Assembly: GCA_900315205.1 (NCBI GenBank) | Contig: OMYF01000012.1 | Coordinates: 1-64,000 of the forward strand | Reading direction: 5' to 3' | Length of the DNA stretch: 64,000 bases | DNA from: an uncultured Acidaminococcus sp. | Lineage (GTDB): Bacteria; Bacillota; Negativicutes; Acidaminococcales; Acidaminococcaceae | In this document: in pieces, positions 24,919-54,642 of the stretch | Layout of the letters: each line of letters opens with the position of its first letter | Position numbering within the stretch: the stretch's first letter is position 1 | Position numbers and translations under genes: made by a program | Notes under the pieces: model-generated | Database searches by the model: none | What the model saw: the letters and a program-made list of their open reading frames with translations, nothing else | Told to the model about the DNA's origin: nothing

Positions 24919-26595
24919 TCAGTTCTGGGACTGGATATCGGTGCTGCTGTCTTCTTCAGGGTTTACCAGTTCCTTGCCGCAGTGCTTGACGACAAGGATG
25001 GCCAGTGCCATCAGGGCAATGGCTACGACGAGCTGCAGACCGTCAACCATCAGCACGAACTTGCCTGCCATCATCTTGGTGTAGATGCCATAGACGGACA
25101 TGCAAAGGGCTGTCATGGTCACGATGAACATGAAGCACATCGGGACGTAGAGCATCCAGCTCTTGCGGCCCGTGGTGCGCAGGAATACGGCCAGGCCGAT
25201 GAGTACGAGGGAAGCGAGCAGCTGGTTGGCTGCACCGAAGAGCGGCCAGATGTTCAGATAGCCGCCGAGGCAGAGCAGGTAGCTCGGGATCAGGGTCACG
25301 ATCGTGGCCACATAGGTGTTGCTCAGGAACTTGGAAACAGGGCTGTCATATTCGGACAGGAATTCCTGCATCATCATACGGCCGATACGGGTAACGGCGT
25401 CGATGGTGGTCATGGCCAGGGCGGAAATGCACATGGTCACGATGCAGTTGCTGACATAGGGAGGGATCCCGAAGATGGCGAAATACTTGCCGATGGCGGA
25501 ACCGAAGATGGCGAACGGAGTAGCCTTCGGAAGCGCACCGTCAACTGCGACGGAGCAGGCAATGACGAGGGAAACCACACCAAGGACGGATTCAATCAGC
25601 ATGGAACCATAGCCAACGGGGAGCATATCTTTTTCGTTGGAAATGGTCTTGGAGGAAGTACCGGAAGAAACCAGGCTGTGGAAACCGGAAACGGCACCGC
25701 AGGCGATGGTGACGAACAGGATCGGGAACATGGGTTTGCCGCCTACGACAAAGCCCTTGAAAGCAGGCATGTTCAGCGTCGGGTTGCCGACGATGATGCC
25801 GACGACACCGGCAAAGATCATGCCGAGCAGCAGGAATACGCTCAGATAGTCACGCGGCTGGATGAGGAGCCACATGGGCAGGACGGAAGCGATGAAGCAG
25901 TATGCATACGTCGCATACAGCCAGGAAGTGCGGGAAGCAAAGATCGGATGGGCGATACCGCCGGCGATCATGGCTACCATGCAGATGATGGCCAGGATGA
26001 TTTCCTTGCCCCCGGTGATCTTGAAACGGCGCGTAATGACACCGAAGATCATGGCAACGAATACGTACAGGGTGGAAATGGAACCTGCGGCAGCGTTCGG
26101 ACCCAGTTCAGCACCGGTCTTGGAGAAGCCGTTGAAGGTGCTGGCCATGATATCGGAGAAAGCTGCGATGACGAGCAGGGAGAACAGCCAGGCGAAAATC
26201 AGAAACAGCTTGCAGCCCGTGTGGCCGACATACTGTTCGATGATCTTGCCCATGGATTTGCCGTCGTTCTTTACGGAAGCATACAGGGATGTGAAATCCT
26301 GCACGGCACCGAAGAAGATGCCGCCGACGAGCAGCCAGAGGAAAGCCGGCAGCCAGCCGAACATGCAGGCGATGATCGGGCCCGTGACAGGGCCTGCACC
26401 CGTGATGGAGGAGAACTGATGGGCAAAGACAGTAAAGCGCGATGCCGGTGCAAAGTCACGGCCGTCTTCAAAGCGGTAGGCAGGGGTCTTCGCATCCGGA
26501 TCGATTCCCCAAGTCCTAACGAGCCAGCGACCGTAGAACAGATAACCGCACGCAAATACGATGATGGCAATACAAACAAGTGTTAATCCGTTCAT
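24919..26595 (-). CDS. cstA: Carbon starvation protein CstA (peptide/pyruvate transporter family)
   Basis: A 558-residue polytopic membrane protein. Family features include GWLPAFLWLLVGGIFFGAVQDFTSLYASVKNDGKSMG, the SSITGAGPVTGPIIA segment and GFHSLVSSGTSSKTISNEKD. Members of the CstA/BtsT family import peptides or pyruvate, often under carbon limitation. This is the shorter clade (E. coli CstA is about 700 residues). It stands alone under a promoter whose spacer contains TTGTATACAA, a site type bound by GntR-family regulators, so induction by a metabolite-sensing repressor is likely. Confidence 0.93.
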   Translation of the reverse strand: MNGLTLVCIAIIVFACGYLFYGRWLVRTWGIDPDAKTPAYRFEDGRDFAPASRFTVFAHQFSSITGAGPVTGPIIACMFGWLPAFLWLLVGGIFFGAVQDFTSLYASVKNDGKSMGKIIEQYVGHTGCKLFLIFAWLFSLLVIAAFSDIMASTFNGFSKTGAELGPNAAAGSISTLYVFVAMIFGVITRRFKITGGKEIILAIICMVAMIAGGIAHPIFASRTSWLYATYAYCFIASVLPMWLLIQPRDYLSVFLLLGMIFAGVVGIIVGNPTLNMPAFKGFVVGGKPMFPILFVTIACGAVSGFHSLVSSGTSSKTISNEKDMLPVGYGSMLIESVLGVVSLVIACSVAVDGALPKATPFAIFGSAIGKYFAIFGIPPYVSNCIVTMCISALAMTTIDAVTRIGRMMMQEFLSEYDSPVSKFLSNTYVATIVTLIPSYLLCLGGYLNIWPLFGAANQLLASLVLIGLAVFLRTTGRKSWMLYVPMCFMFIVTMTALCMSVYGIYTKMMAGKFVLMVDGLQLVVAIALMALAILVVKHCGKELVNPEEDSSTDIQSQN

Positions 26596-26942: not shown

Positions 26943-26970
26943 TTGACAGAATGGCGAAAACATATATAAT
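26943..26970 (+). promoter_or_regulatory. Promoter of the leucine T-box transcript
   Basis: TTGACA (26943-26948), 16 bases, TATAAT (26965-26970). Transcription should begin near 26977, just ahead of the T-box leader. Confidence 0.75.
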
Positions 26971-26984
26971 AAAAGTTAAACCAA

Positions 26985-27273
26985 TAAAAAATGGAATGAA
27001 AAGCATCGATCGGGAATAGTAGCGGTCGGACAGGCCTTTCAGAGAACTGCCGGGTGGTGCAAGGCAGGAAGGAAGTCCTCTGTGAATCTGGCCCGGGAGC
27101 TGCTCCGGTGAAATGACAGTAGTCGGAGCCGTCAGGCGGTCGTTACTCCGCCGGGCATTGGACGGGCCGCAGAGGGCCCGATGATGCTGGATAAGAGGCC
27201 GCCGCAGGCGGCAAAAAGAGTGGTACCGCAGAGCTTCAAGCGCTTTGTCTCTTGGGAGACAAAGCGCTTTTTA
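26985..27273 (+). promoter_or_regulatory. T-box riboswitch, leucine specifier (CUG) inferred
   Basis: Stem I elements are visible: AATAGTAG (27016-27023 region), an AGAGA motif in a CAGAG/CTCTG helix, and GTGGTGCAA in the distal loop. The specifier side reads GAAT then CTG (27088-27090) then G. The isoleucine T-box at 54394 reads GAAC then ATC then A at the same place, so CTG (Leu) is the aligned codon. The T-box sequence AGAGTGGTACCGCAG (27217-27231) gives TGGT for the tRNA NCCA end, which calls for discriminator A, as in tRNA-Leu. A terminator with a 14-bp stem (27238-27269) and T-run ends it. It would raise expression of the gene at 27440 when tRNA-Leu is uncharged. Confidence 0.88.
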
Positions 27274-27439
27274 TATATAGAGAACATGTTTTTGACTTTT
27301 GTTTTCTGTGCTGTCAGGACCCGGGTCCGTCCGGTGGGGAAAATGCTGCATGCTGCAGTCACTGCGGTGCGGGGGAGGTCTGCCGCTTCCGTGCGGGAGC
27401 GCGCAGGAAGAGTATTCAGTCAAAAGGAGATGCCTGGAT

Positions 27440-28390
27440 ATGATGAAAAAAAGAGTCATTGGCGTAATCGGTCTTGGTCATGTGGGCGCCCATGTGGCAT
27501 TCACCCTGGGCGTTACCGGGGCTGCGGATATCGTGAAACTCTGCGATGTCCGGGAGCAGAAACTCATCAGCGAAAGACAGGACCTGATGGATGCGGTCAG
27601 GTTTATGCCGCACCGCGTCAACTACGTCATCGCGAAATATGAGGAACTTGGCGACTGCGACATCATCATCAATGCCATCGGCAAGATCGAACTGCTCGTT
27701 ACCCACAACCGCGACACGGAAATGAATTTTACCGTGGCTCAGGTGGCGGATTTCATCCCCAGGGTCATGGCCGGCGGTTTCCAGGGCATCTTCATCAATA
27801 TCACCAATCCCTGCGATGTCGTGACCGACCTGATCGCTAAATTGAGCGGCCTGCCCAAAGGTCATGTCTTCGGGACCGGGACAGGGCTGGATTCATCGCG
27901 CCTTGTCAGCGCGATCGCGCAGCAGACCGGCCTGGATCACAAGTCCATTACGGCCTATATGATGGGAGAACACGGCAATGCCCAGATGGTGCCCTGGTCC
28001 CTCATCGAATTCGGCGGCAAACCGCTCAGCGAACTCGAAAAAGATCCCCGTTTCGTGTTCAATAAGGACGAAATAAAGGAACGGACGATCAAGGCCGGCT
28101 GGGTGACCTATGTGGGCAAAGGCTGCACGGAATACGGGATCTGCAGTACCGCCGTGGCACTGGCCAATGCGGTGCTCCATGATGAAAAACGCATCATGGC
28201 TGCAAGCTGCCCGCTGGACGGCGAATACGGAGAAAAAGGCATCTTTGCAGGCTGCCCCGCTGTGATCGGCGCCGCCGGAGTGGAGCAGGTCATGGAATAT
28301 ACCCTGACAGCGGAGGAATTGGCTGAATTCAGGAAATGCTGCAGCACGATCCGGGAGAACATCAAACGGGCCGAGGCTGTCTGGAGATGA
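27440..28390 (+). CDS. L-2-hydroxyisocaproate dehydrogenase-like enzyme (LDH/MDH superfamily)
   Basis: A 316-residue NAD-dependent 2-hydroxyacid dehydrogenase. The Rossmann motif is VIGLGHVGAHVA; the catalytic His lies in GEHGNAQMVPWS and the Asp/Arg pair in GTGTGLDSSRLVSAI. The pattern around the nucleotide site and the INAIGKIELL loop is closer to Lactobacillus L-2-hydroxyisocaproate dehydrogenase than to lactate dehydrogenase (from memory of that family, no alignment run). Such enzymes interconvert 2-ketoisocaproate and L-2-hydroxyisocaproate. I start at ATG 27440, ten bases after AAGGAG. It follows a leucine-type T-box by 167 bases with no other gene between, which supports a leucine-linked role. 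Confidence 0.85.
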   Translation: MMKKRVIGVIGLGHVGAHVAFTLGVTGAADIVKLCDVREQKLISERQDLMDAVRFMPHRVNYVIAKYEELGDCDIIINAIGKIELLVTHNRDTEMNFTVAQVADFIPRVMAGGFQGIFINITNPCDVVTDLIAKLSGLPKGHVFGTGTGLDSSRLVSAIAQQTGLDHKSITAYMMGEHGNAQMVPWSLIEFGGKPLSELEKDPRFVFNKDEIKERTIKAGWVTYVGKGCTEYGICSTAVALANAVLHDEKRIMAASCPLDGEYGEKGIFAGCPAVIGAAGVEQVMEYTLTAEELAEFRKCCSTIRENIKRAEAVWR

Positions 28391-28573: not shown

Positions 28574-28610
28574 GCATCGAAGCATCGAAGCATCGAAGCA
28601 TCGAAGCATC
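28574..28610. repeat. Tandem 8-bp repeat (GCATCGAA)
   Basis: Four and a half perfect copies of GCATCGAA lie between the hairpin at 28506-28555 and the end of pxpC. A related GTAAACATC word follows at about 28655 on the minus strand. Confidence 0.9.
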
Positions 28611-54393: not shown

Positions 54394-54642
54394 GTAAAAA
54401 TGATAACAGCCATGACGGAGACAGTAGGTCCTGCGGCCGGTACAGCGATTCGGGAAGAGTGGGAGCCCGGACAGGAGGCGGCAGGAAGGAACATCACTCC
54501 CGAGCTGACCGCCGAAACAGCAGTAGGCCGGTCCGTCCGTTGCGCGTTAGGCAGATCAAGAGTGGCAGGAAATGTCCTGTCATGAGGGTGGTACCACGGG
54601 TTATGAGTCCCGTCCCTTTGCGGGGACGGGACTTATTTTTTT
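54394..54642 (+). promoter_or_regulatory. T-box riboswitch, isoleucine (AUC)
   Basis: The leader shows ACAGTAGG near its start, a specifier strand GAAC-ATC-A with ATC at 54493-54495 (isoleucine), the T-box AGGGTGGTACCACGG (54585-54599) and a terminator AGTCCCGTCCC / GGGACGGGACT followed by a T-rich tract (54606-54642). The TGGT bulge fits the A discriminator of tRNA-Ile. Uncharged tRNA-Ile would prevent termination and allow ileS expression. Confidence 0.95.

Follow-up and report, generated by a model that had tools for sequence, protein, structure and literature searches.

L-2-hydroxyisocaproate dehydrogenase (HicDH) is chiefly known as a 2-keto acid reductase, and Acidaminococcus is known as an amino acid fermenter. 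The hydroxy acid 2-hydroxyisocaproate is excreted by lactic acid bacteria (PMC5589888), and enzymes of the LarAH10 group act mainly on hydrophobic 2-hydroxy acids, including 2-hydroxyisocaproate, with a preference for linear over branched chains (PMC11770544). Among the T-boxes that respond to leucine, the specifier CUG is rare and accounts for approximately 7% (PMC7778990). The main text of a T-box survey does not mention dehydrogenases, and in the open papers searched we found no report of a T-box linked to hydroxyisocaproate or to a lactate permease, and none of T-box control of HicDH. Within the same scope, a Leu T-box ahead of a 2-hydroxyacid dehydrogenase gene appears to be new. Here, we describe such an arrangement in a 64,000-nucleotide stretch of contig OMYF01000012.1 from an uncultured Acidaminococcus sp. 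(GCA_900315205.1), hereafter called the window. Also new are the kinship of this T-box to the Ile T-boxes of a BASS-family transporter, the gene neighborhoods of the dehydrogenase homologs, and an operon in Oscillibacter that contains an LctP-family permease and a dehydrogenase and has a CUG T-box of its own.

Structure of the T-box leader

All features of the leader are located on the forward strand. A sigma-70-type promoter, TTGACA-16-TATAAT, matches the consensus at 12 of 12 positions (26943-26970) and is followed by a full-length T-box leader at 26997-27255, which covers all of positions 1-219 of the RF00230 covariance model with a score of 113.6 bits (E 2.3e-24), above the gathering score of 93 bits. 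The specifier loop consists of GAA (27084-27086), U, the predicted specifier codon CUG (27088-27090), GCCCGG, and GAG (27097-27099). The antiterminator at 27216-27253 (minimum free energy fold of -10.4 kcal/mol) contains a seven-nucleotide bulge of the UGGNACC type, UGGUACC, at 27221-27227, and the intrinsic terminator at 27238-27269 has 14 pairs and then a U run (-22.8 kcal/mol, z -7.8). Folding of the leader indicates that the antiterminator and the terminator are mutually exclusive. The T-box with promoter, stem I, core, and terminator that a preliminary description of this DNA had recognized ahead of the dehydrogenase gene is thus real.

The only gene behind the T-box is located at 27440-28390 on the forward strand. 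It starts with ATG, is preceded by the ribosome binding site AAGGAG at 27424-27429 (+), and encodes an L-2-hydroxyacid dehydrogenase of 316 amino acids with the Pfam domains Ldh_1_N and Ldh_1_C. A longer open reading frame with a TTG start at 27299 gained no support. No additional promoter-like site was seen on the forward strand between the terminator and the start codon, so that expression of the dehydrogenase probably depends on the upstream T-box. Downstream of the gene, at 28574-28605, there is a short tandem repeat, GCATCGAA, in four copies.

Specifier codon and amino acid specificity

The amino acid to which the T-box responds was read from the register of the specifier in the other T-boxes of the same genome. 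The 2.27 Mb source assembly contains 17 matches to RF00230. According to the Rfam alignments and the leader listing, the codon that fits the target gene sits six nucleotides 5' of the stem-I GAG in the T-boxes with an obvious target, where the names of the target genes were taken from reading the translated gene starts. In this register, the leaders of ileS, ilvD, and one ilvC gene read ATC, while those of valS, metF, serA, and leuA read GTC, ATG, TCC, and CTG, respectively, and the Cys-type leaders read TGC. The ileS leader, which had served as the only reference in the preliminary description, is a real Ile T-box at 54403-54620 (+) with the specifier ATC, although its score of 92.9 bits is marginally below the gathering score of 93. 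The leader of the dehydrogenase gene reads CTG in the same register, identical to the leaders of leuA and of a second ilvC gene, and CUG is the specifier in all three Leu leaders of the source genome. The earlier assignment to Leu is thereby borne out by several T-boxes of known target in one genome rather than by a single comparison.

A tRNA-Leu with the anticodon CAG is present in the source genome, and the four tRNA-Leu genes found there all have an ACCA end, that is, discriminator A. The TGGT bulge of the dehydrogenase leader fits this discriminator, as had been argued before, but the argument is weaker than claimed because wobble pairing also allows a UGGU bulge to match discriminator G (PMC7778990). 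The register is therefore the main argument for Leu and the bulge is secondary. The triplets UCU (Ser), UGG (Trp), and GGC (Gly) overlap within the specifier loop, and alternative frames are on record for T-boxes (PMC7778990). A specifier at another triplet of the loop is nevertheless extremely unlikely, since the register of the other T-boxes in the genome rules out these three codons, and since the bulges of the serA and Cys leaders are TGGC and TGGA, as opposed to TGGT in the dehydrogenase leader. The predicted Leu specificity of the T-box, with CUG as the specifier, is well supported.

Other T-boxes likewise precede transport genes. In the source genome, a Phe-type T-box (TTC; C56:34466-34676, minus strand) is located ahead of a gene of the sodium:solute symporter family, the substrate of which may be related to Phe, and two Cys-type T-boxes in tandem (specifier TGC and bulge TGGA; C83:11003-11570) are located ahead of an ABC transporter ATPase gene. 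In A. massiliensis, a T-box with the specifier CTG that groups with the leuA leaders (C4:1326403-1326661) precedes a gene for a carrier of the MatC/CitMHS type.

Sequence and structure of the dehydrogenase

Both domains of the dehydrogenase score above the Pfam gathering scores (PF00056, 58.0 bits; PF02866, 82.3 bits), and the catalytic-type residues Asp151, Arg154, and His178 are conserved. Among the NCBIfam models, the highest score was obtained for L-lactate dehydrogenase (LDH; TIGR01771), but at 261.8 bits it remains below the curated cut-off of 303.55, and the score for malate dehydrogenase (MDH; TIGR01763), 149.7 bits, is below the cut-off of 351.85. The substrate loop reads GKIELL and contains neither the NQKPG motif of the LDHs, with its Gln, nor the PRKPG motif of the MDHs, with its Arg. 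In an alignment of characterized relatives, it is most similar to the GNIKLQ loop of HicDH. The protein is 35.8% identical to HicDH, as opposed to 26-31% for the LDHs and MDHs included in the comparison. In a maximum-likelihood phylogeny, the dehydrogenase family forms a clade apart from LDH and MDH, and groups with HicDH at a weak support of 57.8/58 (bootstrap 58%). As judged from its sequence, the protein is an Ldh_1-fold enzyme distinct from the canonical LDHs and MDHs.

The AlphaFold model has a mean pLDDT of 92.7 and matches the structures of LDHs and HicDH about equally well (Z 42-44). HicDH (1hyh; Z 42.0) shows an rmsd of 1.5 over 297 residues, the lowest among the rows shown, but with Z-scores that tie, the fold does not serve as an arbiter between the two enzymes. 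The earlier label of a HicDH-like enzyme holds to the extent that the canonical features of LDH and MDH are missing and that HicDH is the closest characterized relative by identity. HicDH-like is thus a plausible and fair name for the protein, although an identity of 36% leaves its substrate unfixed.

These results bear on the main alternative, according to which the enzyme would act as an oxidizing lactate dehydrogenase and, at leucine shortage, convert L-lactate to pyruvate, the precursor of acetolactate and hence of valine and leucine. The best NCBIfam score and the fit of the structure to the LDHs would agree with such a function, but the residues of the LDH substrate loop are absent, and a canonical L-LDH that scores above the cut-off is already encoded elsewhere in the source genome. 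Moreover, pyruvate also feeds valine and much else, so that a signal from leucine only would be odd. We consider this explanation rather unlikely, also in light of the gene neighborhoods described below.

Gene neighborhoods of the homologs

To learn about the genes that accompany the dehydrogenase, we examined 80 homologous loci from public genomes, in which the neighboring families were identified on representatives. Since close relatives are numerous among these loci, the following counts are not independent. An LctP-family permease is encoded directly upstream of the dehydrogenase homolog in 21 of the 80 loci, and a racemase of the LarAH10 type in five. In another arrangement, found in seven of the loci, a branched-chain aminotransferase gene is located 24-68 bp downstream of the dehydrogenase gene. 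This neighbor exceeds the curated cut-off of the branched-chain aminotransferase model, and its link to the dehydrogenase was observed in Oscillospiraceae-like genomes and in Fretibacterium.

The neighbors can be read in two ways. The LctP-family (lactate) permease, the LarA-family racemase, and CstA would be expected near a lactate dehydrogenase, and the LctP and CstA neighbors count against a function in hydroxyisocaproate metabolism in that they would equally suit lactate or pyruvate. However, a lactate dehydrogenase would leave the branched-chain aminotransferase unexplained.

A motif scan of the 80 loci yielded few T-box candidates, which refutes the idea that the T-box is broadly conserved ahead of the dehydrogenase. 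Rfam confirmed the candidates at locus L162 and at the locus of the Acidaminococcus genome G005, and most of the loci had no T-box at the gathering score, a threshold that weaker T-boxes would escape. In Oscillibacter sp. RGIG4469, a T-box with a score of 87.7 bits, slightly below the gathering score of 93, precedes the LctP gene and then the dehydrogenase gene. It reads CTG in the six-nucleotide register, which in the same genome gives CTG for leuA and leuS, GTC for valS, TAC for tyrS, and ATC for ilvC. This arrangement, one among 80 loci, could be due to chance in T-box-rich genomes, but the match in amino acid type (Leu) makes such an origin less likely. In the Oscillospiraceae-like genome G302, a T-box above the gathering score with the specifier ATC is located ahead of genes for an LctP permease and a LarA-type racemase (C15:31800-38500), and this genome yielded no dehydrogenase homolog.

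Origin of the T-box in Acidaminococcus

Nine Acidaminococcus genomes were compared. The same Leu T-box is present ahead of the orthologous dehydrogenase gene in one other genome, G001, so that the dehydrogenase is under T-box control in two of the nine genomes, and in one of the two the gene is interrupted. A T-box phylogeny placed the leader in the window and its counterpart in G001 together with the leaders of a BASS/PanS-like transporter (local support 0.992) and apart from the leaders of leuA and ilvC that read Leu. The transporter leaders read ATC (Ile) in G002, G004, G005, G006, and G007.

The gene order suggests how the T-box came to its present position. In the window, cstA (CstA family; 24919-26595, minus strand) is divergent from the T-box and the dehydrogenase, and it is also located beside the T-box and/or the dehydrogenase in G003 and G005. 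In G005, a divergent cstA is followed by the T-box, the BASS gene, and, approximately 350 bp further, the orthologous dehydrogenase. In the window and in G001, there is no BASS gene at the locus and the T-box adjoins the dehydrogenase. The segment GAAGATCA reads GAATCTGG in these two genomes, and the following CCCAGGAG is unchanged in G001. No remnant of the BASS gene between the T-box and the dehydrogenase was seen in the window with blastn, and no close BASS ortholog was found elsewhere in the source genome or in G001, only relatives with 42% identity. In A. intestini (G003), cstA and the dehydrogenase gene have neither a T-box nor a BASS gene between them, and an Rfam search of the regions of seven more relatives identified no T-box. 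The simplest history would be that a cassette of T-box and BASS gene was located beside the dehydrogenase, that the BASS gene was lost, and that the specifier switched from Ile to Leu, with the order of events inferred. The leader of ilvD provides a second switch of this kind, since it reads CTC (Leu) in G005 (C38:3063-3289) and ATC (Ile) in the source genome, G001, and G003, and specifier switching is thus not unique to the dehydrogenase T-box.

Such a history raises the question of whether the T-box stands before the dehydrogenase by accident, as a leftover from the lost BASS gene, with a control that is unrelated to leucine metabolism. Its kinship to the BASS T-boxes, the gene order retained in G005, and the interruption of the ortholog in G001 would all be in line with an accident. 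However, the switch from Ile to Leu altered the specifier segment and left its flank intact, and Leu is common to the two species. The separate Leu T-box ahead of the LctP and dehydrogenase genes in Oscillibacter, as well as the aminotransferase neighbors in relatives, also argue against an accident, which we consider unlikely.

The orthologous gene in G001 (C1:2899500-2907500) is split by an insertion of approximately 1.7 kb that contains a transposase-like gene and the lincosamide nucleotidyltransferase gene lnu(C) (380.8 bits versus a cut-off of 300). The interruption suggests that the dehydrogenase gene is probably dispensable in G001. As for the transporter, five species (G002 and G004-G007) have a BASS/PanS-like gene behind an Ile T-box, and several Acidaminococcus species have a further BASS gene downstream of ilvD or of an Ile T-box. 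The substrates of these transporters may be branched-chain 2-keto or 2-hydroxy acids.

Proposed role in leucine supply

Taken together, we consider it moderately probable that one gene, encoding an NAD-dependent L-2-hydroxyacid dehydrogenase, is governed by a T-box that recognizes tRNA-Leu through the specifier CUG, and that the enzyme serves to make leucine from 2-hydroxyisocaproate under leucine shortage. When tRNA-Leu is charged, the terminator would form. When it is uncharged, its CAG anticodon would base-pair with the stem-I CUG and its ACCA end with the UGGU of the antiterminator, which would stabilize the antiterminator, allow transcription to continue, and lead to synthesis of the dehydrogenase. 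The enzyme would then most likely use NAD to oxidize L-2-hydroxyisocaproate taken up by the cell, as well as related branched-chain 2-hydroxy acids, and the resulting 2-ketoisocaproate would be converted to leucine by a transaminase. We infer the substrate, the direction, the use of NAD, and the control of read-through by tRNA charging in the source species. The supply of 2-ketoisocaproate for leucine synthesis, as suggested in the preliminary description, is a hypothesis that gains support from the aminotransferase neighbors, the LarAH10 racemases, and the separate Leu T-box in Oscillibacter.

A class IV aminotransferase (PF01063, IlvE family) is present in five sister Acidaminococcus species, but was not found in the source genome (approximately 90% complete), G001 (99% complete), G005, or G008. 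IlvE was thus rejected as the final transaminase in the source genome, and in the source genome, G001, and G005 another transaminase would have to perform the last step to leucine.

The reverse reaction, in which 2-ketoisocaproate is reduced to 2-hydroxyisocaproate as an electron sink of amino acid fermentation, as in lactic acid bacteria with HicDH, would match the best-known activity of HicDH and the metabolism of Acidaminococcus. However, a Leu T-box would activate the gene when leucine is short, a condition under which catabolism of leucine would be harmful. A role in supply therefore fits better than one in disposal, and we regard the reductive direction as very unlikely.

Judging from the related gene clusters, gut bacteria of the genus Acidaminococcus may respond to a shortage of leucine by rebuilding branched-chain amino acids out of 2-hydroxy acids. 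More tentatively, there could be a salvage route in gut anaerobes, in which branched-chain 2-hydroxy acids from neighboring organisms are imported by LctP or BASS carriers, racemized by LarAH10 enzymes, oxidized by members of the dehydrogenase family, and aminated by IlvE or another transaminase to leucine and isoleucine, under the control of T-boxes for branched-chain amino acids. Lineages would vary in the combination of these parts, and the specificity of the T-box would switch between Ile and Leu with the target gene. If the dehydrogenase family does make amino acid precursors from 2-hydroxy acids, this would represent a route of cross-feeding in gut and rumen communities. For an enzyme family that reaches no more than sub-threshold database scores as a lactate or malate dehydrogenase, the T-box specifiers also offer an easily read clue to its physiological role.

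Comparison with known systems

The enzyme shares its fold and the loop motif GxIxL with the L-2-hydroxyisocaproate dehydrogenase of Lactobacillus confusus (PDB 1hyh), to which it has the highest identity among the characterized relatives compared, but its substrate loop is shorter. It belongs to the same superfamily as the bacterial L-lactate dehydrogenases of TIGR01771 and has the same domains, but differs from them in the absence of the NQKPG loop and in a score below the cut-off. The leader shares stem I, the specifier loop, the UGGU bulge, the terminator, and the match to a tRNA of the genome with the Leu-class transcriptional T-boxes, such as those of leuA and leuS. The targets of these are ligase, transporter, or classical biosynthesis genes, whereas the target here is a 2-hydroxyacid dehydrogenase gene. 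The closest relatives of the leader are the Ile T-boxes of the BASS/PanS-like transporter in other Acidaminococcus species, which are its sisters in sequence, have the same terminator, and, in the case of the G005 copy, are likewise located between cstA and the dehydrogenase gene. They differ in that their specifier is AUC (Ile) and their first target is a transporter. The locus is a clear natural example of T-box divergence within a genus, as both the controlled gene and the amino acid sensed vary from species to species.
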